Below, one piece after another: positions 1,458 through 26,902 of a stretch of DNA of 64,000 nt (its first letter is position 1; each line of letters begins with the position of its first letter). This stretch comes from Sphingorhabdus sp. (GTDB lineage Bacteria; Pseudomonadota; Alphaproteobacteria; Sphingomonadales; Sphingomonadaceae): positions 1 to 64,000 of the forward strand of contig NZ_JAAVVZ010000014.1 of NCBI RefSeq assembly GCF_023910635.1, in the 5' to 3' direction. The notes beneath the pieces are model-generated. The model was not told where the DNA came from and did not search any database. It saw only the letters and a program-made list of their open reading frames with translations. A program made the position numbers and the translations under genes.

Positions 1458-2525
1458 CTAAACCGCCAACCGTCCATGTTCCAACCGGGGCAACACATGG
1501 CGCGCGAACATGTCGCATTCGTTGATATGGGGGTAGCCGGACAGAATGAATGCCTCGATACCCACCGCGCGGTAGGCGTTGATTTTGGCGAGCACTTGGT
1601 CTGGGTCGCCAACGATTGCCGCGCCGCAGCCTGAACGGGCCCGGCCAATGCCGGTCCACAGATTATCCTCCAGATAACCATCATTCGCCGCAGCTTGTGC
1701 GCGCAGTTCGGCCTGATGCGCAACGCCGAAGGTTTGGGTGTCGAGCGATTTGTTCCGGATGGCCTCGCCCTGATCGGCATCAAGCTTGGACAGCAAGCGG
1801 TTGGCGTAAGCGCGCGCCTCGGCCTCGGTTTCGCGGACGATGACATGGGCGCGGAAGCCATATTTCAGCGTGCGACCGAATTTGGCTGCGCGCGCGGTCA
1901 TGTCGTCGACCAAGTCCTTGGCACCCTGCAATGTTTCGGGCCACATGAGGTATACGTCGCAACCTTCGGCGGCGGCGTCCTTGGCGGCTGGTGACAGGCC
2001 GCCAAAATAGAGCGGCGGGCATTTACCGCTGACTGTTTTCATGCGCGGAGGGTCGATGTCGATCTTGTAATGCTCGCCGTCAATCGACAGATGTTCGCCG
2101 TTCAGCAGCGTCTTCAATATGTGCATTGCCTCAACCGTGCGGCGATAGCGCGGTTCGGAATCCATCTTGTCACCGGGCAAGTCCGACGAGATGATATTCA
2201 CGTTCAACCGCCCGCCCGAAATCTGATCCAGCGTAGCGATCTGCCGCGCAAGCTGGGGTGGCCAGCTTTCGCCGATACGCACAGCCATCAGCAATTTGAT
2301 CCGCGTGGTTAGCGCCGCAATCGCGCTGGCAAAGGCGGTGGTGTCCAGGCCAAGGGTATAGCCCGATGGCAGCAAGATGTTGTCAAACCCGCCTTTTTCG
2401 GCGGCCAAAACGATATTGCGGCAATGTTCCCAGCTGGAGGCCAAATTGGGGTCGGGGACGCCCAGAAATTCATAGTCGTCATCGCAAAGCGCGGAGAACC
2501 AGCTTACTTCGACAGGCGTGTTCAT
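1458..2525 (-). CDS. SsuD-like flavin-dependent monooxygenase, probable sulfoquinovose monooxygenase (SmoC-like)
   Basis: This LLM-class, FMNH2-dependent monooxygenase is 355 aa. It aligns by eye with SsuD: W195 (YLMWPE), R225 and H227 (FRAHVIVRET), R297 (ARSG) and Y331 (SGYPH) sit where SsuD has its sulfonate and flavin contacts. In the sulfo-SMO pathway SmoC uses O2 to cleave the C-S bond of sulfoquinovose, giving sulfite and 6-oxo-glucose. I chose the ATG at 2525, which overlaps the upstream reductase stop as ATGA; an in-frame ATG at 2582 lies inside that gene. It is last in a four-gene operon headed by a sulfoquinovosidase. A generic alkanesulfonate monooxygenase remains possible. No flavin reductase is nearby. 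Confidence 0.8.
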   Translation of the reverse strand: MNTPVEVSWFSALCDDDYEFLGVPDPNLASSWEHCRNIVLAAEKGGFDNILLPSGYTLGLDTTAFASAIAALTTRIKLLMAVRIGESWPPQLARQIATLDQISGGRLNVNIISSDLPGDKMDSEPRYRRTVEAMHILKTLLNGEHLSIDGEHYKIDIDPPRMKTVSGKCPPLYFGGLSPAAKDAAAEGCDVYLMWPETLQGAKDLVDDMTARAAKFGRTLKYGFRAHVIVRETEAEARAYANRLLSKLDADQGEAIRNKSLDTQTFGVAHQAELRAQAAANDGYLEDNLWTGIGRARSGCGAAIVGDPDQVLAKINAYRAVGIEAFILSGYPHINECDMFARHVLPRLEHGRLAV

Positions 2526-3424
2526 GGCAGCGGCACTCCCCTTGCGGCAACAAGGACGCTGTACCAATCGGCGCGTGTCCATTGAATTTTGAACGCATCA
2601 GCAGCTTCGGTTATGCGCGCCGGGTTTTGCGAGCCGACAATCGGGATGGGCCGGGCGGGGTGCGCCATAATCCAGCTATAGGCCGCCGCCGTGCGCGATA
2701 CACCATGCGCCGTCGCAACCGCCGAAAGGGCAGTAGCAACATTTTGCTCACGCGCATTTTGCGGGTCGCCAATCCGTCCGCCGCCCAATGGCGACCATGC
2801 CATCACCGCAAGGTCCATCGCTATCGCTTGATCTAGCTCGCCATTTTCGACGGTGTCGATCCGCAAGGGCGATAATTCGGGTTGTGTCGAAACGATGGGA
2901 ACCGGGCTAAATTGCGCCAGTGTCGAAATCTGCGCTTGCGTAAAGTTGGACACGCCGAACGCGCGGATCTTGCCTGCTGTATGTGCATCCTCAATGGCGC
3001 GGGCGATTTCCTGGGGATGCGTTAACACGTCTGGCCGGTGAATTTGCCACAGGTCGATGCGGTCAGTGCGCAAACGCGTCAGGCTGTCATTGATCGCTTT
3101 GGTCAGATATTCCACGCTGCTGTCATAAGGCGTTGGCGGGGTGATGCCGCCTTTGGTCGCCAGTATCATGCGGTCGCGATATTCAGGGGCTTGCGCAAAT
3201 ATGTGGCCAAGCAGTTCTTCGGCCTTGCCAAAACCTTGGTCGCCAAAACCGTAAATATCGGCGGTGTCAAACAGGGTGATGCCAGCTTCAAACGCGGCAT
3301 CAATGGCGGCTCTAGCAGCGGACAATTCAAGCCCGGCAAAGCGCCACATGCCCCATGCTAGGGACGAGATTTCTATACCACTTTTGCCCAACGGGCGCGT
3401 GTGCGGAGGGAGGGGAAGCGTCAT
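2522..3424 (-). CDS. Aldo/keto reductase, probable 6-oxo-glucose reductase (SmoB-like)
   Basis: This 300 aa (beta/alpha)8 NAD(P)H oxidoreductase has the canonical tetrad D53, Y58 (FDTADIYG), K91 (ATKGG) and H129 (WQIHRPD). In the Agrobacterium sulfo-SMO pathway the aldo/keto reductase SmoB reduces the 6-aldehyde left after desulfonation to glucose. The gene overlaps both the LacI gene and the monooxygenase by ATGA, so the three are translationally coupled. The specific substrate is inferred from the operon; the family assignment is direct. Confidence 0.82.
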   Translation of the reverse strand: MTLPLPPHTRPLGKSGIEISSLAWGMWRFAGLELSAARAAIDAAFEAGITLFDTADIYGFGDQGFGKAEELLGHIFAQAPEYRDRMILATKGGITPPTPYDSSVEYLTKAINDSLTRLRTDRIDLWQIHRPDVLTHPQEIARAIEDAHTAGKIRAFGVSNFTQAQISTLAQFSPVPIVSTQPELSPLRIDTVENGELDQAIAMDLAVMAWSPLGGGRIGDPQNAREQNVATALSAVATAHGVSRTAAAYSWIMAHPARPIPIVGSQNPARITEAADAFKIQWTRADWYSVLVAARGVPLP

Positions 3425-4452
3425 GATTTTTTGCTCTTTTTTGGATAAGGGGAATAGGGTGGTGCCACGGATTCGCGGCTGATAAGTTCATGAGGCAGGC
3501 GACGATGCTCAATCCCGCCTTCACCAAACAACAGGTCGGCGGCGGTCGAAGCAAGGTCGCGAACCGGCTGGCGCACGGTCGTCAAGGGCGGCCAGACAAC
3601 ACGCGCCAGCGTGGTATCGTCAAAGCCCACAACCGAAAGCTGCTCTGGGATTTGAATGCCGCGCCGATGCGCGACCGCAAGCACGCCCGATGCCATGTCG
3701 TCGTTCGATGCGAAAATCGCGGTTGGCGGGTGCTTAAGCGACAAGAACTGCTCGGTGGCAGATACGCCGCTTTCAAAATCAAACCGTCCTTCGGCAATCA
3801 GGTCAGAATCAACCGATATGCCGACGCGTCCCAATGCACGTTCATAACCCGCTTGTCGTTCCGTACTCGCCTTATGGTTTGGGTGGCCCTTGATAAAGCC
3901 GATCCGCCGATGGCCGATGTTGATGAGCTTCGTCGTCATGTCGTCGGCGGCCTGCATGTCATCCATGAAGACTGAACTGGTCAACGCATGGTTGGTCCCC
4001 GGCGAAATGCGCACAAACGGAATGTTGAGCGCCTCAAGCGCGTTGAGCACAGGCACGCAATCAGTGACGGGGGAGGAGAGTATCGCGCCGTCCACATGCG
4101 TTTGCCGCACCATGCCGCGCACCTGTTCACCGACGTCTGGGTCTGCAACATCGACCGGCTGCGCGATTAAGCGCATGCCCTCTTGATGGCAACGGTCCCA
4201 GCATCCTTGCATGATCTGGTGCATATAATAAGGGCTGTGATTGTCGTAGATCAAAGCGATCTGTCCGGATTTGGTACCTGCTAATATGCGCGCGGCGATG
4301 CTAGGGCTAAAGCCAAGCTCCGACATGGCGGCGTCCACTTTGGCCTTGGTGGACGCGCTCACATAAGGATGGTCGTTGAGCACGCGGCTGACGGTTTTTA
4401 CCGCCACGCCGGCTAGCTTTGCGACATCACGTATATTGGCGCGCGGGTTCAT
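3421..4452 (-). CDS. LacI-family transcriptional regulator of the sulfoquinovose operon
   Basis: This 343 aa protein has an N-terminal LacI helix-turn-helix (residues about 6-30: IRDVAKLAGVAVKTVSRVLN), a hinge ending near SIAARILAG, then a periplasmic-binding-protein-like sugar sensor (GFDDTTLARVVWPPLTTVRQP). It lies inside the operon, overlapping the GH31 gene and the reductase by ATGA. It probably represses the operon and the divergent TonB receptor in response to sulfoquinovose or a sulfoquinovosyl glycoside. SmoD of Agrobacterium is the comparable regulator. No convincing operator was found by eye in the 6462-6676 intergenic region. Confidence 0.88.
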   Translation of the reverse strand: MNPRANIRDVAKLAGVAVKTVSRVLNDHPYVSASTKAKVDAAMSELGFSPSIAARILAGTKSGQIALIYDNHSPYYMHQIMQGCWDRCHQEGMRLIAQPVDVADPDVGEQVRGMVRQTHVDGAILSSPVTDCVPVLNALEALNIPFVRISPGTNHALTSSVFMDDMQAADDMTTKLINIGHRRIGFIKGHPNHKASTERQAGYERALGRVGISVDSDLIAEGRFDFESGVSATEQFLSLKHPPTAIFASNDDMASGVLAVAHRRGIQIPEQLSVVGFDDTTLARVVWPPLTTVRQPVRDLASTAADLLFGEGGIEHRRLPHELISRESVAPPYSPYPKKSKKS

Positions 4453-6461
4453 GCAGCGTACGCCATGTGGATGGACGCAAATAGGTCAGCATAATTGCTG
4501 TCGATGCGGGTGAAGACCGGGGGTTGGCCGTTCGGCGCGGCAATGTCGTGCGTGCCTTTGCCATAGGTCTTGCCCGACCACAGATGGACCCAGTCGCCAT
4601 CGGGTATCACCACCGAGCGGCTGTCTTGGCCTTCCGCAACGACCGGTGCCACGATCATGTCTGCACCATAGAGATATTGGTCCTGAATGTCGTAATATGC
4701 CGGGTCGTCATAATGCAGAAACATAGGCCGTTGCAGCGGCAGGCCAGTTGCCGCCGCTTCGTCGCAAAGCGCACGAACATAAGGCGCAAGCTGCGCATGG
4801 ACTTGGCTCATCCGTGCAAAATGGCTGAGGATTTCCGGGCTACTGTCGAGTTGCAGATTGTCCGCCGGGCGATTGCCTTCATGGCTGCGCATCACTGGGG
4901 CAAATGCGGCAAGGTCGATCCAGCGGTGCATGAGCTCTGCCGTCCGCACAACGCCGTGCAGGCTGGTGTATCCGCCCAAGTCGCTATGGTGATAGGCATT
5001 GCCCAACAAGCCGGACGACAAGGCTGCTGTTATGACCGTGTTGATGCCGTCATGCCGCGTGAAATCGACACATTGGTCGCCCGCCCATAATAAGGGGCAA
5101 TAGGCCTGAACGCCGGAAAAACCTGCACGCATGAAAAAGGTCGCGTCATGCGTTTTGCCGCGCGAGGCGATGGCATCGGCGTTCACCTTCGCCCATAAGA
5201 CGGGCCAGCGATTATGCGCCTCCATCGGGTCGGATCCGTCGAACAAGCGCACATCGGTTGGCAGATATTCGCCAAAATCGGCCATCCATCCTGACAGCCC
5301 GAAATCGAGCATTTCTTGGCCGATGATGCGATCGGCAAACCAGTTCGCGGCGTCGGGATTGGTGAAATCCACTATGCCTGCGTCAAATTCTCCGAAGTCG
5401 ACGGCATAGGCTGTGTCGCTGTCCTGCCGCAATGCGAGATAATTGTTGGCCAGCGCCTCTTGATACAGCGCGCCATCCACTGCCAGATAGGGGTTCACAT
5501 AGCCCAAAAAGCGAATGCCACGTTTGGCCAGCGAAGCGATGTGCGCGGGCAGGTCGGGATAGCGCGCGGCATTCCATTTCCAGTCCCAGAACAGGCGCTT
5601 ACCAAAACTTGTTTGACGGATGCCAACCCAATCCTCGCACCACAGCCCCGTAATCGCCGCGCCAGAGGCAGCTATAGTCTCGAAGCGGTCAAATGTGTCT
5701 GCGCCGTCCTTAAGGCCGACAATTGCCCCAGAAATCGCCCAATCTGGCAAGGGCGGTTGACGCCCGAAACGGTTGGACAACTTTGTCACCAGATCGGGCA
5801 GCGATGGCGCGTCGAATAGCTCCAAATCCATATTGGCCGACCAGCATTCGACACCAACACGGCCCGCTTCGGTCAGATCTAGGACAGTATAGGCTGCCGT
5901 TTCGAGGTGCACCGCATGCAGCGCACTGCTCACCCATGTCGGCTGCGGATAATTGGTCGTCCAATAATCACCGCCCGCCAAGCCATTGGTATCCATGGTC
6001 TGCGTAAGCGCGGTCGACTTATCGCGGCCAACCCCAGGCTCCGACGTCCAGAACGGAAAGCGACGCCCGTTAAGCCGCAAATAAGACATTTGCTCCCCGC
6101 CGCCCCAAAATGCTTCGGACGCTTCGGATTGCATATTTATCCAAAGACGGTTGAAGGCGGGGTCACTGCAACGCAGTTCAAGTGCCGATTGCTGGGCCCG
6201 CTGCGTCAGCTTGAGCGTAACCACCACATCAGGGCGCGCCGCATTCCAAAGGCGGATGATGCCACCTGCTTCGGCACAGCAATCCAGCACTAATCGTGTT
6301 TCAACGATGTCGTCGATGCGAAAATTGCCACGAACCATTTCAAGGTCCGGTGATCCAATTCCCACTTCAATCGCAGGCGCCTTATTGCGATGAGACATCA
6401 TGCAGACGTCATCGCGCAGTAGGTCAAAACCCTCTGATCGCATCATGACCGTGAATGGCAA
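4449..6461 (-). CDS. GH31 sulfoquinovosidase (YihQ/SmoI-like)
   Basis: This retaining glycosidase is expected to release sulfoquinovose from sulfoquinovosyl glycerol or related glycosides. Numbered from the TTG at 6461 (670 aa), it has the nucleophile D395 (GWMADFGEYLP) and acid/base D462 (WAGDQ). The residues matching E. coli YihQ Q262, Q288, R301, W304 and Y508 are K251, E276, R289, W292 and Y498, the K-E-R-W-Y set of the Agrobacterium enzyme. Offsets to the E. coli numbering are constant, so the alignment is secure. The TTG is preceded by AAGGAG at good spacing; the ATG at 6554 has no such site. There is no signal peptide, so it probably acts in the cytoplasm. Confidence 0.9.
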   Translation of the reverse strand: MPFTVMMRSEGFDLLRDDVCMMSHRNKAPAIEVGIGSPDLEMVRGNFRIDDIVETRLVLDCCAEAGGIIRLWNAARPDVVVTLKLTQRAQQSALELRCSDPAFNRLWINMQSEASEAFWGGGEQMSYLRLNGRRFPFWTSEPGVGRDKSTALTQTMDTNGLAGGDYWTTNYPQPTWVSSALHAVHLETAAYTVLDLTEAGRVGVECWSANMDLELFDAPSLPDLVTKLSNRFGRQPPLPDWAISGAIVGLKDGADTFDRFETIAASGAAITGLWCEDWVGIRQTSFGKRLFWDWKWNAARYPDLPAHIASLAKRGIRFLGYVNPYLAVDGALYQEALANNYLALRQDSDTAYAVDFGEFDAGIVDFTNPDAANWFADRIIGQEMLDFGLSGWMADFGEYLPTDVRLFDGSDPMEAHNRWPVLWAKVNADAIASRGKTHDATFFMRAGFSGVQAYCPLLWAGDQCVDFTRHDGINTVITAALSSGLLGNAYHHSDLGGYTSLHGVVRTAELMHRWIDLAAFAPVMRSHEGNRPADNLQLDSSPEILSHFARMSQVHAQLAPYVRALCDEAAATGLPLQRPMFLHYDDPAYYDIQDQYLYGADMIVAPVVAEGQDSRSVVIPDGDWVHLWSGKTYGKGTHDIAAPNGQPPVFTRIDSNYADLFASIHMAYAA

Positions 6462-6676
6462 TGTTTGCTCCTTTAATCTTGTCAGGGTGACCGCTATGAC
6501 AACATTGCAACAGTCCCGACTTAAAAATCGTCGCCATATGACACCGCTAGACATATTGAGTCAATCTGGTAACAACCCGGCCATTGATAAGGCATATCCC
6601 AATGTAGCTTTTATTGCTTGAACGAACTCAAGTGATTTGGTTGAGAAACGGATGGCCATTTTTAGGGAGGTATATG
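6462..6676. promoter_or_regulatory. Divergent control region, sulfoquinovose operon / TonB receptor
   Basis: These 215 bases separate the divergent operon and receptor, so both promoters must lie here. A Shine-Dalgarno for the operon is AAGGAG just above the TTG at 6461, and AGGGAGG at 6664-6670 serves the receptor. The only inverted repeat noticed is weak: CTTGA-6-TCAAG at 6617-6632. No confident -35/-10 pair was identified. Confidence 0.55.
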
Positions 6677-9067
6677 ATGTTCAGTTCTGAATTTAAGAAA
6701 ACGTCTTTCATCCGCGCTTCGTTGTTCGCGAGCGCCGCAATTATGGCCGGTGTCAGCCTGCCCGTAATGGCACAAACCGCCCCGGCAGAAGATGATACGG
6801 CCAATGCAGAAATCATCGTAACCGCGCAGAAGCGTGAAGAGCGTTTGCAGGATATTCCGCTTGCCGTTTCTGTTGTTGGCGGAGAGGCTGTTGCCAATAA
6901 TGGCGGCATTACGCTTGAAAATGCGCAGTATCTTGTTCCAAGCCTGAACTTCCGTAAGGCGGGAACGTCGCTGAATCAGGCATTGTTCCTGCGCGGCGTT
7001 GGCACCATCAACTTCTCGATTGCCGCTGAACCTTCGGTCGCTGCCGTTCTCGACGGCGTTGTTTTGAGCCGCGCGGGCGAAGGCTTTACAGATTTGTTCG
7101 ACGTTGAGCGTATCGAAGTGTTGCGCGGACCGCAGGGCACATTGTTCGGAAAGAATGCATCTGCCGGTGTTGTAAGCATCGTGACGAAGCGTCCAACGGC
7201 TGAATATGGCGCGACGGTTGAAGGTTCATTCTTCACCAAATCCGAATATCGCGGCCGTGCGACGGTGAACTTGCCACTCGGTGCTAATGTGCGTTCGCGC
7301 TTCACCGGATTTTACGGAAGCTATGATGGCAACATTAACAATCTGACCACCGGCAAAAAGGTCAATGGCTATGAACATTACAGTGTTCGTGGCGCGATTG
7401 AGGCCGATGTCGGCGAAAATGTCATGCTGACGTTGCGCGCCGATTACCGCAAAGCCGATGATGATTGCTGTGCCGAAATTATTGGTAACACGCCAACCAA
7501 TGCTGCTGCTCTGGCGCTGGTTGGAACTGGCTTTGATGGTTCGGATTCACGTAACATTCGGCAGAACCTCGTCACCGCGACGAAGGAAGAAAGCTGGGGC
7601 ATTGCGCTGCAAGCAGACGTTGAATTGGGCGAACATAGCCTGACTTCGATCACCAGCTATCGTGGTTGGGATAATACTGAAATCCGCGATGGTGACTGGC
7701 TCGACCGGCCCTATGTTGGTTTGAACCAGTTGCACGATAATGGTCCGCAAACATCGAACACCTTTAGCCAGGAAATTCGGATTGCTTCGCCCACTGGCGA
7801 ATTCCTCGAATATGTTGTCGGGGCATATTATTCGAGGGCGGAATCGGACCGTACATTCACGCGTAATGTGATTACCTGTTCGGCATCAACGCTCGCTGCG
7901 GTTGTACCGGGTCTCGTGCCTTGCTCAACCACTGCGGGTGCATCGACGATCACAACCCCTGCTGGAACGGCAGACTTTGGTTCGATATTCAAAAATATGT
8001 CGGTATTTGGTCAAGCGACGTTCAACCTATCGGACAGCCTGCGTTTGATTGGTGGCTTGCGCTACACACATGACGAGCTGGACGTAAACCATATCCGCCG
8101 TACCTCGCTCGCAGGTCCAGGTGTGCAAGGAAACTTCGACGCTGGCGTTTACAATAATGGTCTTGTGGCAACAGCGCCAGCGACAGGCTTTGTGGCCGGC
8201 ACGTCAAACGGCGTTCCCTTCACCACCAGCACTAGCAACAATAACCTCTCGGGTAAGGCAGCCGTGCAGGCCGATCTCACTGCGAATAACATGGCTTATG
8301 CAAGCTATACCCGCGGTTACAAGGGGCCAGCCTATAACATCTTCTACAACCTAACGACGCTGGGCGCGGGTGTTATCGCACCAGAAACAGTCAACGCGTA
8401 TGAAGTGGGTTTGAAAAATACGTTCCTTGACGGCGATCTGATTGTTAACCTCGCGGCATATTATGCAAAATATAACAATTATCAGGCGAACGGCCCCGAT
8501 TTCGTGGCCGGTGTGCGTACCACGCGCCTGACAAATGCAGGTTCGGTCTCCACCAAGGGCTTCGAACTCGACTTTGTCGCTACCCCCTCGCGTAACTTCA
8601 CCCTTTCGGGGGGCGTTGCTTACAACAAGGCACAGGTTGAGACTTTCCGATTGCCGCCGGGCGCGGATGCATCACAATTGGTTGCCAAGGGCACGCCGTT
8701 GGCGAATGCACCAAAATGGAAAATGTCGCTTGGCGCGCAATATGACATCGAAACTTCGGGCTTTGCGAATATCGAATTGGGAAGCCAGATTGCGATGCAG
8801 TCAGACCAGATTTACGAAGCGAGTGCGAACCCAGCGGTACGCCTTGGTTCAACCGTTGATGGCTACGCGATTGTCGATTTGTCCGCAGCTTTGGTAGATC
8901 CCAATGATGGTTGGCGCCTTGCGTTTCAGGTTAAGAACCTGTTCGATAAAAGCTTTGCCTCTTCGATTGTATCGGGTGGCCCTGGCGGTGCATATCGCTT
9001 CATCATCCCCCGCGAGGCCGATCGTTATTTTGGCGTAACTGCGAAGATCAACTTCGGCGCGAATTAA
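6677..9067 (+). CDS. TonB-dependent outer-membrane receptor, probable sulfoquinovoside uptake
   Basis: This protein of about 796 aa imports a ligand across the outer membrane using TonB energy. It has an N-terminal signal peptide (..ASAAIMAGVSLPVMAQTA), a TonB-box-like EIIVTAQKR, a plug domain (FLRGVGTINF, VLRGPQGTLFGKNASAGVVSIVTKRP) and a 22-strand barrel ending in aromatic-rich strands. Tandem ATGs lie at 6674 and 6677; the second is better spaced from AGGGAGG. It is divergent from the sulfoquinovosidase operon, which suggests the ligand is a sulfoquinovosyl glycoside. The ligand is inferred from position only. Confidence 0.88.
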   Translation: MFSSEFKKTSFIRASLFASAAIMAGVSLPVMAQTAPAEDDTANAEIIVTAQKREERLQDIPLAVSVVGGEAVANNGGITLENAQYLVPSLNFRKAGTSLNQALFLRGVGTINFSIAAEPSVAAVLDGVVLSRAGEGFTDLFDVERIEVLRGPQGTLFGKNASAGVVSIVTKRPTAEYGATVEGSFFTKSEYRGRATVNLPLGANVRSRFTGFYGSYDGNINNLTTGKKVNGYEHYSVRGAIEADVGENVMLTLRADYRKADDDCCAEIIGNTPTNAAALALVGTGFDGSDSRNIRQNLVTATKEESWGIALQADVELGEHSLTSITSYRGWDNTEIRDGDWLDRPYVGLNQLHDNGPQTSNTFSQEIRIASPTGEFLEYVVGAYYSRAESDRTFTRNVITCSASTLAAVVPGLVPCSTTAGASTITTPAGTADFGSIFKNMSVFGQATFNLSDSLRLIGGLRYTHDELDVNHIRRTSLAGPGVQGNFDAGVYNNGLVATAPATGFVAGTSNGVPFTTSTSNNNLSGKAAVQADLTANNMAYASYTRGYKGPAYNIFYNLTTLGAGVIAPETVNAYEVGLKNTFLDGDLIVNLAAYYAKYNNYQANGPDFVAGVRTTRLTNAGSVSTKGFELDFVATPSRNFTLSGGVAYNKAQVETFRLPPGADASQLVAKGTPLANAPKWKMSLGAQYDIETSGFANIELGSQIAMQSDQIYEASANPAVRLGSTVDGYAIVDLSAALVDPNDGWRLAFQVKNLFDKSFASSIVSGGPGGAYRFIIPREADRYFGVTAKINFGAN

Positions 9068-9090
9068 TCTGAACGCGACACATTAAAATG

Positions 9091-9130
9091 AAAAGGCTGG
9101 AATCCACATCGGGTTCCGGCCTTTTTTTTT
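9091..9130 (+). terminator. Rho-independent terminator after TonB receptor
   Basis: The stem AAGGCTGGAA..TTCCGGCCTT, with one G-T pair, is followed directly by a run of T, 27 bases after the receptor stop codon. Confidence 0.88.
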
Positions 9131-9254: not shown

Positions 9255-9521
9255 TAGGGTCAGGACCTATTAAATCCACCTTCGCGGTTTGAGGCCATAC
9301 TGTTCAGTGCAAGGCGGCAAGCGCAGGACTTAGTGGTTCTAAGTCCAAGCTTGCCAACGTGGCAATGGACAGTATGGGTCAAATCCGAAGGACGCCAAAA
9401 TGGCTTCGATCTCAAAGCAAAATGCCCTTGCAGGCAGAATAACTGCCTGCGGCGGACATTTTCCTTCGATATCTTTGCCATTTTGACGCCGCGAAGGTGG
9501 ATTTAATAGGTCCTGACCCTA
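9255..9521. mobile_element. MITE-like element, copy A (267 bp, 33-bp perfect terminal inverted repeats)
   Basis: The ends are perfect inverted repeats of 33 bases beginning TAGGGTCAGGACC, and the element is bounded by TA on both sides, as expected for a TA target duplication (IS630/Tc1 or IS427 type). It has no credible ORF. The interior holds several hairpins (GGACTTAG/CTAAGTCC, TTGCCA/TGGCAA, GCAGGCAG/CTGCCTGC). Copy B at 43602-43869 is nearly identical. Copy A ends 9 bases before the first BlaI-type operator. The rest of the gap from 9131 to 9254 shows nothing recognisable. Confidence 0.88.
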
Positions 9522-9575: not shown

Positions 9576-9947
9576 ATGTCATCGGAACGTATCAGCGACG
9601 CTGAATTAACGATCATGGAAATATTGTGGGAACGTGCACCGCTGACTGCGACCGACGTGGCCGTGCGGCTGCCGGATGACCGTGAATGGTCCTTACCCAC
9701 GGTCAAAACCTTGCTGTCGCGACTGCTCGGTAAAGCAGCGGTCGAGCACCACGTCGACGGACGACGCTTTCTGTATTCGCCGCTCATCGGTCGTGAGGAT
9801 TATGTGGCGCATGAATCGAAGCGGCTGGTGAACCGACTTTTTGGCGGCAAGTTTATGCCATTGTTCGCGCATCTGGCGGAGCAAGAAAATCTCAGCGCTG
9901 CCGACATATCCGAAATGGAAAGATTGTTGCAGGAGATGAAATCATGA
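9576..9947 (+). CDS. BlaI/MecI-family transcriptional repressor
   Basis: This 123 aa winged-helix repressor begins MSSERISDAELTIMEILWE and has the recognition region WSLPTVKTLLSRLLGKAAV typical of BlaI/MecI, followed by a C-terminal dimerisation helix. In this family the repressor leaves its operator after cleavage triggered by the partner M56 protease. The stop codon overlaps the start of that protease gene as ATGA. Two matching operators lie upstream. No beta-lactamase or PBP2a gene is adjacent, so the signal and regulon are unknown. Confidence 0.92.
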   Translation: MSSERISDAELTIMEILWERAPLTATDVAVRLPDDREWSLPTVKTLLSRLLGKAAVEHHVDGRRFLYSPLIGREDYVAHESKRLVNRLFGGKFMPLFAHLAEQENLSAADISEMERLLQEMKS

Positions 9948-11572
9948 GCACGGACTTCATGGGGGCATGGCTGTTCGACACATTTGTGGTGACCAGTATG
10001 CTGATGCTGCTGGTTTTGCTCCTGCGGCGGCCTGTGGCGCGGCATTTTGGCCCAAGCGTCGCCTATGCACTTTGGTGTATTCCGGCTGCTCGCGTTTTTA
10101 TGCCTTCGCTGGAGGGCGCGCCTGCACCCAATTTGGAGAGCGGGACAGCATTACAGGACAATGTGCGGGACGCGATCTTTGCGGGTATAGCTACGCCGGA
10201 AAATACGGCCTCCGCAACGAGCCAAATGGCGAACATGCCATCGGTCGATTATACCGTGCTTGGTTTGACATTATGGCTTGGCGGCGCAACGTTGTTTTTT
10301 ATCATACAGATGATCCGCTACACCTCTATGCGCGACGAGCTTTTGTCTGAGGCGACTGAAATCGCAAATATCAACGGCATCAGCGTTGTTGCCTCGGATC
10401 AGGTGGCCGGACCGCTCGCCTTCGGCCTGTTCAAACGCTATATTGCGGTGCCGCAGGATTTTACCAAAAGCTATTCTGCTGAGGAGCGCGAACTCGCCAT
10501 TGCGCACGAAATGGCGCATCACCGTTCGGGCGACCTGTTTGCCAATTTGGCGGCGTTCATCTTATTGTGCCTTTCATGGTTCAATCCGGTCGCATGGCTG
10601 AGCTGGAACGCCTTTCGTATTGACCAAGAAGCGGCATGCGACGCGCGCGTCTTGGCGGGGAAGGATACGCAGGACCGCGTCATATATGGAAGGGTATTGG
10701 CGCGCACGGCGTTTGATGGCGTGCCGGCCTTTGCCACTGCGCTAAATTCCCCAAAAACTATTATCGAACGATTGCGGCGGCTCAATATGAAGAATGCCAG
10801 CACAAAAAGGCGCTTGCTTGGTAAAATCGGCATAATTGCTGCCGCTGCTTTGGTCCTGCCACTAACCGCAACGGTCGTGCCTGCGGTGGTCGCGCAGGAT
10901 GAAACTGTTGCCGATGGCAAAGCCGAAACGGTCAAGCGCGACGGCAAAACCGTTGATATCGTCGGCCATGATGGCGATGGCCAAAAGGTCACCAGGGTCG
11001 AACGTGACGGAACGGTCTTCATCTTCCGGACCGACAAGACGCCGACGCGGGGCGAAGTCGAAAAGATGATCGAAGAGGCTGAAACGGATGCCAAGGAGGC
11101 AGAAACCTATGCCAAAGAGGCGGACGAGGCCGTGAGCGAAGCCGATATTGCACAAATTGAGGCCGACACGGCCATGGCATCCGCCGAGTTCGGGCGCGGA
11201 ATGGCACAGGCCACGCGCGGAATGGCACAGGCCAATCGAGTCATCGTAAATGCCGCCGTCGATATAGCGAAGATCGACATTCAGGACATGACCCAAAACT
11301 GCACCGCCGGGCAATACCTATCCACCGATGTTAAAAGCATTGATGGCACGAGCAAGGCGCGCGTTCGCCGTGTGACGTGCGGCGAGCCGTGTGATGTGTG
11401 CGGGAAGCGGCAGGCCAAGATTGCCATGGTCAAAGCTCTAACGGACTTGCGCGCGGCACGCCGTGACATTGTTTCGGCAACAGAAATGCCCAAAGCCGTG
11501 CGCAAAGATGTGATGGGAAGGCTTGATAACGAGATCCGCAAGCTCGAAACGCAAACGGACAATATCAACTAA
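9944..11572 (+). CDS. M56-family (BlaR1/MecR1-like) membrane metallopeptidase with non-PBP C-terminal region
   Basis: This 542 aa integral membrane zinc protease has N-terminal membrane segments (FDTFVVTSMLMLLVLLLRR and one near LGLTLWLGGATLFFII), the HEXXH motif (AIAHEMAHHRSGD, about residue 188), and another hydrophobic segment near 290-310 (LGKIGIIAAAALVLPLTATVV). The outer region is not the penicillin-binding sensor of BlaR1. It has a charged stretch, an Ala/Glu-rich coiled-coil-like stretch (about 365-420) and a C-terminal part with four cysteines (NCTAG, VTCGEPCDVC). It is coupled to the BlaI-like repressor, so it should transduce some envelope signal. Confidence 0.88.
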   Translation: MSTDFMGAWLFDTFVVTSMLMLLVLLLRRPVARHFGPSVAYALWCIPAARVFMPSLEGAPAPNLESGTALQDNVRDAIFAGIATPENTASATSQMANMPSVDYTVLGLTLWLGGATLFFIIQMIRYTSMRDELLSEATEIANINGISVVASDQVAGPLAFGLFKRYIAVPQDFTKSYSAEERELAIAHEMAHHRSGDLFANLAAFILLCLSWFNPVAWLSWNAFRIDQEAACDARVLAGKDTQDRVIYGRVLARTAFDGVPAFATALNSPKTIIERLRRLNMKNASTKRRLLGKIGIIAAAALVLPLTATVVPAVVAQDETVADGKAETVKRDGKTVDIVGHDGDGQKVTRVERDGTVFIFRTDKTPTRGEVEKMIEEAETDAKEAETYAKEADEAVSEADIAQIEADTAMASAEFGRGMAQATRGMAQANRVIVNAAVDIAKIDIQDMTQNCTAGQYLSTDVKSIDGTSKARVRRVTCGEPCDVCGKRQAKIAMVKALTDLRAARRDIVSATEMPKAVRKDVMGRLDNEIRKLETQTDNIN

Positions 11573-17478: not shown

Positions 17479-17520
17479 ATCTTGGATTGTGCGTCGGGAC
17501 TTAGGGCTTATGGTGGCGGC

Positions 17521-18981
17521 ATGATCCGCTCGCTGTCGATGTTGTTGTTGTTATTGTTATTGTCCGCAACACTTGCCGGATGCTCCGAAGGCGTCGACAA
17601 TGAACGCGTCCGGGTTGACGTTATCGAAGATCGTCCCCGGCCTTTGAATGTATCCGCAACGCCGCTGCCGTTGGCGTCTGCTTATCTGCGCGCTGCCACG
17701 GCCCAAGGACTAGTCACTTTCGATGAAAAAGGACGCGTTGCGCCCGGCCTCGCCAATCGCTGGATCGTGACCGAAGACGGCATGAGTTATATCTTTCGCC
17801 TGAATAAAGCGCTCTGGAATGACGGGCGTGAGGTAGAGTCAAGGGAGGTTGCACGTCTTCTGACTGCCCGCATCCGGGAATTGCGCAAGGGGCGCCTTGG
17901 TGCCGAACTGGGTGTCATTGACCGTGTCGTCGCGATGACGGGTAAGGTGGTGGAAATCAGGCTGAAGGCCCCTATGCCCTATCTGTTGGAATTGCTCGCT
18001 TTGCCGGAGTTCGGGTTACTCAGCAAGGGCGCTGGATCGGGTCCGATGCAGGCCAAGAAATTTGGACCGGTTATGCAGTTGCGGCGCAATGAAATCGACG
18101 ATGAAGGCGCGCAATTCCAGGGCAATGCAATGGTAACATTACAACGCGGCGCGGCCTCAACGGTGCTTGCCCGTTATGCACTTGGACAAAGCGACCTTGT
18201 CGAAGGCGGACGGTTTGACAGCTTTCCCTTGCTCGATGCGGCAAACATACGGGCTGATCAAATCCAATTTGACGCGGTCCCGGGATTATTCGGTTTGCAG
18301 GTGGTTAATGACGGACCCTTTCTGTCCGACACGGCAAATCGAACGGCGATTGCTATGGCTATTGATCGCCCCAAATTATTGACGGCGTTTGATATTGTGG
18401 CGTGGCAGGAAACGGTTACCTTGGTTCCCGAAAGCTTACCAAATCGTGCGCGTATAGCCCGGCCTGCTTGGTCAGCGCCATCAATGGAAGAACGCAGGGC
18501 GATGGCAGCTGCGACGGTCGCCAATTGGAAAAATGCGAATGGCGCGCTCCGCGCATTACGGGTTGCTTTACCGCGTGGTTATGGCAGCCGGATATTCTTT
18601 GCGCGTTTGCGGGCTGACCTTGCAACAATCGGCATTGATATTGAACGGGTGACAATGGACCGACCGCATGACTTGCTGCTCGTTGACCGTACCGCGCAAC
18701 AATCGAGTCCGGCATGGTATCTGGATCAGCTATCGTGCACATTTGCTACGATCTGTAGCGCACGGGCGGACGAGATTGTGGCCGAAGCGCGCCGAACGAC
18801 CGATAGCGCGAAGCGCGCGCAGTTATTGGGGGAGGCAGAGGCCGAGTTGCAGACCACCGTTGCCTTCATCCCTATTGCAAATCCTTTGCGTTGGTCGGTC
18901 GTCCGGCCCGGCCTACTGGGGCATTTTGCCAATGGTCGTGGGTGGCACCTGTTGCAATATCTTGGACGTGACCCGACATAG
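17521..18981 (+). CDS. Extracellular solute-binding lipoprotein (peptide/nickel type, SBP_bac_5)
   Basis: This protein of about 486 aa has a lipoprotein signal (MIRSLSMLLLLLLLSATLAGC, lipobox LAGC) and the family 5 solute-binding pattern (APGLANRWIVTEDGMSYIFRLNKALWNDGREV). ABC permease and ATPase genes are absent, so it is either an orphan binding protein or a receptor with another partner. I chose the ATG at 17521 because it starts the lipoprotein signal; 17482 would add 13 unlikely residues. It follows the protease gene in the same direction. Confidence 0.8.
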   Translation: MIRSLSMLLLLLLLSATLAGCSEGVDNERVRVDVIEDRPRPLNVSATPLPLASAYLRAATAQGLVTFDEKGRVAPGLANRWIVTEDGMSYIFRLNKALWNDGREVESREVARLLTARIRELRKGRLGAELGVIDRVVAMTGKVVEIRLKAPMPYLLELLALPEFGLLSKGAGSGPMQAKKFGPVMQLRRNEIDDEGAQFQGNAMVTLQRGAASTVLARYALGQSDLVEGGRFDSFPLLDAANIRADQIQFDAVPGLFGLQVVNDGPFLSDTANRTAIAMAIDRPKLLTAFDIVAWQETVTLVPESLPNRARIARPAWSAPSMEERRAMAAATVANWKNANGALRALRVALPRGYGSRIFFARLRADLATIGIDIERVTMDRPHDLLLVDRTAQQSSPAWYLDQLSCTFATICSARADEIVAEARRTTDSAKRAQLLGEAEAELQTTVAFIPIANPLRWSVVRPGLLGHFANGRGWHLLQYLGRDPT

Positions 18982-24873: not shown

Positions 24874-24955
24874 TGGGATGTTTGAAACTTAAATAGCGGA
24901 TTTACCCGCAGCGTCTAATGCTGCATCGTGCCGTCAAAATATGGGGGAGAACAAG

Positions 24956-26902
24956 ATGCACAAGATTTTATGGGCAGCGTTATTGAGCACGGCGTCGGCA
25001 ACAGGCGCGTGGGCACAAGACGCAAAGCCAGCATCTGATGCGACGGTCGCCGCGCAACGCAGCGTCGCGGCGCAGCTTCCTACCGAAGATGGCCGTGATC
25101 TCGATTTTGCGGACAGGGGTTTTATCGGCACTTTGTCCGACCCCGTCATCACCAACAAAGACGGCAAGCCTGTCTGGAACCTTGGCGCTTATGACTGGAT
25201 GGTGGATGGCCAATCACCCGATACGGTGAACCCAAGCCTGTGGCGGCATATGGGCCTGTTGCGTAAACATGGGTTGTATGCGCTGACGGACAATGTCTGG
25301 CAAGTGCGCGGCTTTGACGTGTCGAACATGACGGTGATCAAAGGCCAAACGGGTTGGATCATCATCGATCCGCTGACCAGCCGGGATACTGCGGCGGCGG
25401 CGCTGAAACTGGTGAATGAAAAGCTGGGCGTGCGGCCAGTCACTGCGGTCATCTATAGCCACAGCCATGGCGACCATTTCGGCGGTGTGCGCGGGATCAT
25501 CAATGAGGCCGACGTAAAGGCGGGTAAGGTTGCGATCCTTGCGCCGGAGCATTTCCTTGCCGAGACGGCGTCTGAAAATGTCATGGCCGGTCCTGCAATG
25601 GGCAGGCGCGCGACGTTTCAATTTGGCAGTAACCTGACGCCTGGTCCGCAAGGGCAAATGGGCAGTGGCATCGGCAAAGGCATTGGCGGGGGTGACATCA
25701 CGCTGATCCCGCCCACAATCGACATTCGCAAAACTGGCGAACAACGCGAAGTCGACGGCGTGACGTTGGAGTTCCAAATGGTGCCGAACACGGAAGCACC
25801 GGCCGAAATGAACGTCTATCTGCCAGCGGCGCGTACGTTTCTGGCCGCTGAAATCGCAACATGCACCCTGCACAACATCCTGACCCCGCGCGGCGCGAAA
25901 GTGCGTGATACGTTGAGCTGGTCCGGGTTTCTGAACGAAGCTGTCAACCTATATGGCGAGCGGAGCGACGTTATTGCCTCAAGCCATTGCTGGCCGCGCT
26001 TTGGCCAGTCGGAGGTCAAGGGCTGGCTGGCGGGGCAGCGCGACAATTATCGGTATATGCACGACCAAACGGTGCGCATGATGAACAAGGGCATGACTCA
26101 AGCCGAGATCGCGGAAGTTTTAAAGGCACCGCCAGCGATTGGCGACCAATGGTTTAACAAGGGCTATTACGGCACCTACAGCCATAATTCGAAGGCGATC
26201 TATCAATATTATCTGGGTTGGTATGATGCCGTCCCCGCCAATCTTAACCCGCATCCGCCGGAGATTCGCGCGGGCAAAATGGTCGCGGCTATGGGCGGCG
26301 CGAAGAAGGTTTTGGCAGAGGCGAAAAAGGCGATGAAAGCGGGGGACTATCGCTGGTCATCCGACCTGTTGAACCAACTCGTCTTTGCCGAACCCAAAAA
26401 TGCCGAGGGGCGGGCTTTGCTTGCCGACAGCTATGAACAGCAAGGCTATCAGTCGGAATCCGCGATCTGGCGCAACATGTTCCTGACGGGCGCGCGCGAA
26501 CTGCGTGCAGGCATGAAGGCAGGCATTAACGCGCAAAGCATCGACATGATTTCGGCGATACCAACTGGGTTGTTGTTGGATTCGGTGTCGACCCGGCTGG
26601 ACCCGAATGTCATTGGCAATGCCGCGCTGACCCTGAATTTCGTGATTTCGGACCGAAAAGAGACCGCGAAAGTAACCGTTGGCAATTCGGTGATGTTCAG
26701 TGAAATGGGTAAGGTCCACGCTGCGCCTAATGTGACGGTCACTGGCCCGCGCCAATTGTTTCTGGCCTTATTGTTCCTGAAAATGCCGGCAGCGCAGTTG
26801 CAGGCCGCTGGTCTGAAAATCGACGGCGACAGGGCGGCGATTGAAAAGCTTCAGGCGGCGCTTGACCCGATGCCGGGTGCATTCAACATTGTGGAGCCTT
26901 AA
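24956..26902 (+). CDS. Alkyl sulfatase (SdsA1-like, MBL fold)
   Basis: This exported metallo-hydrolase is expected to cleave primary alkyl sulfates such as SDS to alcohol and sulfate. The 648 aa protein has a signal peptide (MHKILWAALLSTASATGAWAQ), the zinc motif SHSHGDHFGG, AEIATCTLHN and SSHCWPRFG, an alkyl-sulfatase dimerisation domain (about 400-510), and a C-terminal SCP2-like domain that binds the alkyl chain. I chose the second ATG (24956), because the first (24941) overlaps the ribosome-binding site GGGGGAG. Confidence 0.92.
   Translation: MHKILWAALLSTASATGAWAQDAKPASDATVAAQRSVAAQLPTEDGRDLDFADRGFIGTLSDPVITNKDGKPVWNLGAYDWMVDGQSPDTVNPSLWRHMGLLRKHGLYALTDNVWQVRGFDVSNMTVIKGQTGWIIIDPLTSRDTAAAALKLVNEKLGVRPVTAVIYSHSHGDHFGGVRGIINEADVKAGKVAILAPEHFLAETASENVMAGPAMGRRATFQFGSNLTPGPQGQMGSGIGKGIGGGDITLIPPTIDIRKTGEQREVDGVTLEFQMVPNTEAPAEMNVYLPAARTFLAAEIATCTLHNILTPRGAKVRDTLSWSGFLNEAVNLYGERSDVIASSHCWPRFGQSEVKGWLAGQRDNYRYMHDQTVRMMNKGMTQAEIAEVLKAPPAIGDQWFNKGYYGTYSHNSKAIYQYYLGWYDAVPANLNPHPPEIRAGKMVAAMGGAKKVLAEAKKAMKAGDYRWSSDLLNQLVFAEPKNAEGRALLADSYEQQGYQSESAIWRNMFLTGARELRAGMKAGINAQSIDMISAIPTGLLLDSVSTRLDPNVIGNAALTLNFVISDRKETAKVTVGNSVMFSEMGKVHAAPNVTVTGPRQLFLALLFLKMPAAQLQAAGLKIDGDRAAIEKLQAALDPMPGAFNIVEP

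Follow-up and report, generated by a model that had tools for sequence, protein, structure and literature searches.

How is the substrate brought in, and reduced flavin supplied, for a sulfoquinovose (SQ) operon with neither an inner-membrane importer nor a flavin reductase among its own genes? The question is raised by a 64,000-nucleotide stretch of DNA from Sphingorhabdus sp. (assembly GCF_023910635.1, contig NZ_JAAVVZ010000014.1; here called the window), in which genes of the GH31, LacI, aldo/keto reductase and SsuD-like families form an operon that faces a divergent TonB-dependent receptor gene. The initial annotation took the receptor to stand in place of an ATP-binding cassette (ABC) importer. 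We rejected this substitution because the receptor crosses the outer membrane and an ABC importer the inner one; a major facilitator superfamily (MFS) candidate for the inner-membrane step lies elsewhere in the genome, behind the same operator. We propose instead, with a probability of roughly 70%, that the operon and receptor are one part of a three-locus regulon run by a single LacI repressor, which would import SQ-glycerol, release SQ and glycerol from it, and desulfonate the SQ. The core operon is a further member of a known pathway; the newly assembled part is the regulon.

The proposal starts from a short sequence between the divergent genes. In an alignment of the receptor–GH31 intergenic regions of relatives (15 rows, of which L028 is empty and L042 shows two base differences, in the left edge and the core), the block TATGTCTAGCGGTGTCATAT was kept where the flanks had changed. 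In the window, the proposed LacI operator, ATATGTCTAGCGGTGTCATAT (6536-6556, minus strand), is an imperfect palindrome with an odd centre, defined from this conserved block and from genome scans. A 21-mer scan of the source assembly (3.05 Mb, 89 contigs, listed as 100% complete), allowing up to three mismatches, gave three matches, and the reversed-pattern control none. The two distant copies lie at the junction of an MFS gene and a YeiH-type gene on contig C88 (80877-80897, two mismatches) and upstream of a PF01613 gene on contig C36 (2894-2914, three mismatches), the latter with 16 bp between its end and the proposed ATG. The relaxed pattern TGTCNNNCGNTGTCA returned the same three places, again with a control of zero.

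The association extends through the genus. With a chance expectation of ∼0.05 matches per genome (a uniform-base estimate), the strict site was found in 31 of 45 genus genomes, and the control gave 0 in all 45. SmoC, the SQ monooxygenase, is encoded in 37 of them; 30 genomes have both SmoC and the site, seven SmoC only, one the site only (G031) and seven neither (Fisher p 5e-4, kinship ignored). Around chosen genus sites we read 20 regions: ten of the third type, as on C36; eight of the second, as on C88; a core locus (L166); and L164. All ten third-type sites (L148-L157) directly precede the PF01613 gene, and the second-type sites at separate loci all flank an MFS gene (8/8). The sites stand far apart in relatives, by 80 kb to 450 kb or on separate contigs (G003, G004, G044); they are at 2.01, 2.13 and 2.42 Mb in the one-contig genome G004, and at 0.11, 0.39 and 0.47 Mb in G044. 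In G005 (L164), a single stretch holds LacI-GH31, site and receptor, followed by MFS, site and YeiH-GlpD. The pattern TGTCNHRCGNTGTCAY gave one to four matches in each of 20 genomes behind named or metagenome-assembled loci, with a control of zero in all 20; the genomes of the cultured relatives S. wooponensis and S. contaminans have the sites too. Loci of Novosphingobium, Erythrobacteraceae and Sphingopyxis have the site between the receptor and GH31 genes and a second time before an MFS gene, or else ahead of a YeiH|MFS locus at a distance. Of ten remote places matching the relaxed pattern, four are such YeiH|MFS junctions (L228, L229, L231, L234). A conserved site was found upstream of every transcription unit proposed as a member.

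The genes behind the two distant sites bear on both halves of our question. The initial annotation had suggested searching the genome for an inner-membrane permease and a flavin reductase, and both searches produced a candidate behind the operator. With the MFS protein of Novosphingobium resinovorum as query, one strong match was obtained, on C88 (238 bits; second best, 52). Its divergent neighbour is the YeiH-type gene (PF03601), followed by glpD, whose product scores 721 bits, above the NCBIfam cut-off of 360. Among the eight second-type loci, seven have the order MFS | YeiH-GlpD (L159-L163, L165, L167) and one is MFS | GlpD (L158). The permease itself comes in two types: those of L159-L162 are 92-96% identical to that on C88, and those of L163 and L167 only 38-39%, with YeiH at 88-89% and GlpD at 79-84%. 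Two transposase-like reading frames, judged by eye, adjoin the C88 MFS gene (L109:6810-8992).

The reductase candidate is the genome's one PF01613 match, on C36, no genome-wide search having been made for Fre-type reductases. The earlier statement that a flavin reductase is absent thus stands for the cluster, among whose genes there is none, but not for the genome, where this protein apparently acts in trans with the operator upstream. It is a fusion of 411 aa, with an alpha/beta-hydrolase fold in the N-terminal half and PF01613 at 263-408. In 28 intact fusion rows there is no His where the catalytic His of a hydrolase is expected (our placement), and for this reason we infer that the domain is without hydrolase activity; 24 of 25 orthologues have the elbow Ser, one has Thr there, and three paralogues have Gly. 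An AlphaFold2 model from a 23-row alignment was too poor for interpretation (mean predicted local distance difference test score, 50.7). Orthologues of at least 79% identity occur in 26 of the 45 genus genomes. Of the 25 with upstream sequence, 23 have the 15-mer core of the site 33-34 bp before the fusion ATG (up to three mismatches), 19 of them with at most one mismatch; in four distant paralogues (65-69%) the core is absent.

Which protein might bind the site was approached through related loci, taken as the 80 best-scoring of at least 558 by SmoC-like match. Genes in these loci were called mechanically; after ranking of open reading frames (ORFs) by homology, SmoC was labelled in 80/80 (67/80 in an earlier pass), and counts for all other genes are lower bounds, many loci ending at contig ends. 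At least 20 of the 80 carry, near smoC, a Gfo/Idh/MocA-family gene (f7) and in none of these was GH31 labelled; the nearest structures to the family representative are 8qc2/8qc3 (373/367 bits), which we take to be GH188 sulfoquinovosidases. In 57 loci with a LacI homologue, counting sites at up to two mismatches and without correction for kinship, the site was present in 30 of 39 where the LacI is at least 60% identical to that of the window, and in 2 of 18 below 60%. For GH31 loci the corresponding figures are 30/32 and 1/8, and for GH188-type loci 0/5 and 1/8. Because site presence follows LacI identity, the local LacI is proposed as the binder in GH31 clusters, which the counts support; GH188-type clusters do not fit. 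The lac operator lacO1 is likewise an odd-centre pseudo-palindrome, and the likeness to LacI-family sugar regulons extends to a local repressor gene and distant targets.

A number of observations weigh against a single regulon. Seven of the 37 genomes with SmoC lack the strict site (G001, G007, G008, G009, G018, G022, G034), and ten lack a fusion match, while two of the other 27 (G007, G019) have only a distant paralogue. Five GH188-type loci have a LacI 62-66% identical to that of the window and no site at up to two mismatches. Two fusion orthologues have a poor site, with four (L184) and seven (L177) mismatches. On C88, the YeiH-type protein scores 107 bits against TIGR00698, under the NCBIfam cut-off of 232.6, and the site overlaps the 5' end of its reading frame, where the choice of start codon is uncertain. 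The other six of the ten remote relaxed-pattern places showed no regulon protein, bar a distant receptor-like ORF in L230, and the controls for this pattern gave 0-2 matches per genus genome among the matches listed; the relaxed pattern alone is thus not specific, and was never used alone. Finally, the three loci of the source genome lie on three contigs of a draft assembly (C5, C88, C36), the window beginning at the start of C5 and the C88 locus lying a few kb from a contig end, so that their separation is judged from relatives.

The alternative that survives best grants the MFS/YeiH/GlpD locus to an SQ regulon, and so partly overlaps our proposal, but has the fusion work mainly in aromatic (tyrosine/homogentisate) metabolism, co-regulated by chance. 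A 4-hydroxyphenylpyruvate dioxygenase (HPPD) gene adjoins the fusion gene in the source genome and in six of the ten regions read, because of which a role in tyrosine catabolism is conceivable, and the reductase domain is nearest the HsaB/HpaC types, reductases of aromatic monooxygenases. In the other four regions, however, HPPD was not found and the operator stays, and a fusion match occurs in 27 of 37 genomes with SmoC against one of eight without it (p 0.003, kinship ignored). We consider this alternative unlikely.

It is rather improbable that the window holds just an ordinary SQ operon that works as its Novosphingobium counterpart does and is served by any housekeeping flavin reductase, with the distant sites coincidental or belonging to another LacI-type regulator. 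The available part of a 2022 review does treat an in-cluster flavin reductase as optional, and presumes 'other flavin reductases', of a general kind, for Sphingomonadales clusters without SsuE (PMC9594981). The source genome has three PF03358 proteins; in our reading they resemble WrbA, quinone reductases and flavodoxins more than SsuE. Coincidence, however, accords poorly with a strict-pattern control of zero, with every such site that was read preceding the same two gene sets, and with G005 and other genera, where the MFS set with its site shares a locus with the core. At least 5 of the 80 loci have, no more than 9 kb from smoC, a gene of a family represented by a PF03358 FMN reductase (f25), and in one of them, L085 (Sphingopyxis), near position 2106, the operator stands between the f25 gene and an MFS gene. 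Flavin reductases under the operator are therefore found outside the fusion as well, and the fusion would be a replacement by a non-homologous protein.

That the operon handles SQ at all was claimed in the initial annotation from gene families, and this assignment is well supported; the tight overlap of the four genes was confirmed. The minus strand carries, in order, GH31, lacI, smoB-like and smoC-like genes, each junction being a 4-bp ATGA overlap, and the receptor gene is divergent on the plus strand; all five are present with open reading frames, and their starts were corrected from homologue lengths and upstream sequence. The GH31 sulfoquinovosidase (4449-6461, minus strand, 670 aa) starts at a TTG after AGGAG, the listed ORF extending to 6554, and no signal peptide was seen by eye. 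Its best solved structures are the sulfoquinovosidases 5ohy (835 bits) and 5ohs (833), the best other GH31, YicI, scoring only 147. The SmoC/SquD-like flavin-dependent monooxygenase (1458-2525, minus strand, 355 aa; PF00296), with a start shared with most close homologues, matches 7olf (370 bits) and 7oh2 (364) ahead of the SsuD entries 1nqk/1m41 (197). The SmoB/SquF-like aldo/keto reductase (2522-3424, minus strand; PF00248), presumed to convert 6-dehydroglucose to glucose, best matches 7bbz (157 bits); as YdhF entries come next at 149-150, sequence alone leaves its substrate unsettled and the SmoB role is drawn mainly from synteny. The LacI-family regulator, the proposed operator binder, occupies 3421-4452 (minus strand; PF00356/PF13377), and the receptor (797 aa; PF07715/PF00593) 6674-9067 on the plus strand.

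The initial annotation called for a check of ligand residues, and those looked for are kept. Location of motifs against structure alignments placed R289/W292/Y498 and D395/D462, the sulfonate-binding and catalytic residues, in the GH31 protein, W195, R225, H227, R297 and Y331 in the SmoC-like protein, and the tetrad D53/Y58/K91/H129 in the SmoB-like reductase. We take 5ohy, 7olf/7oh2 and 7bbz to be SmoI, SmoC and SmoB structures, and the roles and reference numbering of these residues are taken as background. With an SQ monooxygenase, a SmoB/SquF-like reductase adjoining SmoC and a sulfoquinovosidase all encoded, the SQ monooxygenase/alkanesulfonate monooxygenase pathway (sulfo-SMO/sulfo-ASMO) is a well supported reading of the sequence. 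The Agrobacterium-type in-cluster flavin reductase is missing, as is the in-cluster ABC importer, for which only the cluster genes and not the whole genome were searched. An operon for an unrelated alpha-glucoside and an alkanesulfonate is scarcely credible: the SmoB-like and SmoC-like proteins do come from broad families, but the GH31 protein keeps the sulfonate-binding residues and scores far above other GH31 enzymes against sulfoquinovosidases, and the Gfo/Idh/MocA family appears near smoC always where GH31 is unlabelled.

From gene families and the common site we read which way transport runs, what the substrates are, how the loci are repressed and which reductase partners SmoC, and on this reading the steps of the three-locus regulon would be as follows. 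Passage of SQ-glycerol (or SQ) through the outer membrane would fall to the TonB receptor, and through the inner one to the MFS protein. In the cytoplasm, GH31 would cleave SQ-glycerol to SQ and glycerol, the glycerol branch falling to GlpD. The fusion protein would provide the reduced flavin with which SmoC releases sulfite and 6-dehydroglucose from SQ, and SmoB would reduce the latter to glucose. YeiH is predicted to export sulfite or sulfate, and LacI, acting at the site, would keep all three loci repressed as long as SQ and its derivatives are absent. A SorA-type sulfite dehydrogenase was sought and rejected: the sole PF00174 match in the genome, whose gene adjoins that of a membrane protein, has 257 aa and so falls far short of the SorA-like protein in related loci (411 aa), and sulfite oxidation is left unassigned on that account.

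A receptor facing the operon is no peculiarity of this genome. Among the matches listed, the named proteins nearest to the SmoC-like one come from Sphingorhabdus and unclassified Sphingomonadales. In the 80 loci, homologues were labelled as SmoC in 80, SmoB in at least 67, the window receptor in at least 62, the window LacI in at least 57 and GH31 in at least 44. The suggested comparison across Sphingomonadales recovered the order receptor | GH31-LacI-SmoB-SmoC in Novosphingobium, Sphingopyxis and Erythrobacteraceae loci. At least 38 loci carry an MFS permease of family f5 no more than 9 kb from smoC; the window has none of this family.

The receptor itself varies. In a tree of 60 receptors (receptors no longer than 600 aa, no more than 38% identical or further than 9.5 kb from smoC were excluded), two deep clades, with further types, occupy the same place. 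The 18 rows of clade B come from GH31 loci only (18/18); the 41 rows of clade A, to which the window belongs, divide into 20 GH31 loci, 18 GH188-type loci and three with neither, and one long-branch row (L094) was counted in neither clade. When 28 genus genomes were assigned to types according to which of three query receptors matched best, 16 (window included) came out as A, 10 as B (some of the calls being only 65-68% identical) and 2 as C. Among close relatives (L035/L036, L238, L240), the receptor is swapped for one 41-45% identical while the enzyme genes stay similar; L035 and L036 have SmoC proteins 98% identical and receptors only 44%. The nearest relative by SmoC, G032 (99%), has a type-B receptor. 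The DNA match of the window to G032 and G028 ends at 6555 and 6574, at the edge of the operator, and long alignment resumes at ∼9514-9520; to G016 (type A) it is unbroken over 1458-9128. The alignments indicate cassette exchange of the receptor gene, with the break falling at the operator. A wider proposal seems to us evenly balanced, namely that within a three-locus regulon the flavin reductase, fused to a hydrolase fold without its catalytic His, serves the SQ monooxygenase as dedicated partner and so takes the place of the SmoA missing from SsuE-less clusters, and that receptor and permease are exchangeable cassettes round an otherwise constant enzyme core, the operator being the receptor breakpoint.

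Three other features of the window may be recorded. Beside the receptor lies a pair encoding a penicillinase repressor and an M56 (BlaR1-type) peptidase (9576-11572). A family 5 solute-binding protein (SBP_bac_5, PF00496), of the ABC-importer kind, is encoded ∼8 kb from the receptor (17482-18981). A further organosulfur enzyme, an alkyl-sulfatase-like protein (PF14863/PF14864/PF00753), is encoded at 24941-26902.

SQ production is on the gigaton scale and, in the accessible part of a mangrove stable-isotope study, its assimilation was dominated by Novosphingobium with a predicted sulfo-SMO pathway; that study scores genomes with SmoB and SmoC matches within 10 ORFs (PMC13372026). A literature search, with most subscription papers outside it, returned no paper with both sulfoquinovose and Sphingorhabdus, no such SQ LacI regulon in Sphingomonadales and no description of such a fusion. 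The operator offers a handle on SQ uptake genes that are invisible to surveys with a 10-ORF window, and the named reductase gene, permease and exporter are testable candidates where reductases are only presumed. The receptor exchange provides a natural comparison of receptors on one enzyme set.

The SquD/SquF sulfo-ASMO pathway of Novosphingobium aromaticivorans was reportedly described by Liu et al. in 2021, and the Agrobacterium smo cluster is said to have been characterised by Sharma et al. in 2022. With the former cluster, so far as the available portions of its accounts go, the window has in common a YihQ-type sulfoquinovosidase, SquD, SquF, the lack of SsuE and its place in Sphingomonadales; the same portions are silent on any distant locus with permease, exporter and GlpD, on a flavin-reductase fusion and on a common operator (PMC9594981, PMC12890257). 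Clusters with the NAD+-dependent GH188 sulfoquinovosidase, in the part of their description available, are also found in Sphingomonadales and are sulfo-SMO-like, with a Gfo/Idh-type enzyme where GH31 is absent, whereas the window uses GH31 (PMC10755693). The likeness to the Agrobacterium smo cluster, in what is accessible of its description, covers the GH31 sulfoquinovosidase, SmoC, SmoB and a LacI-type regulator. In Agrobacterium, however, an ABC importer and a flavin reductase lie within the cluster, whereas in the window the TonB receptor is adjacent and the MFS permease and flavin reductase are apparently provided in trans.

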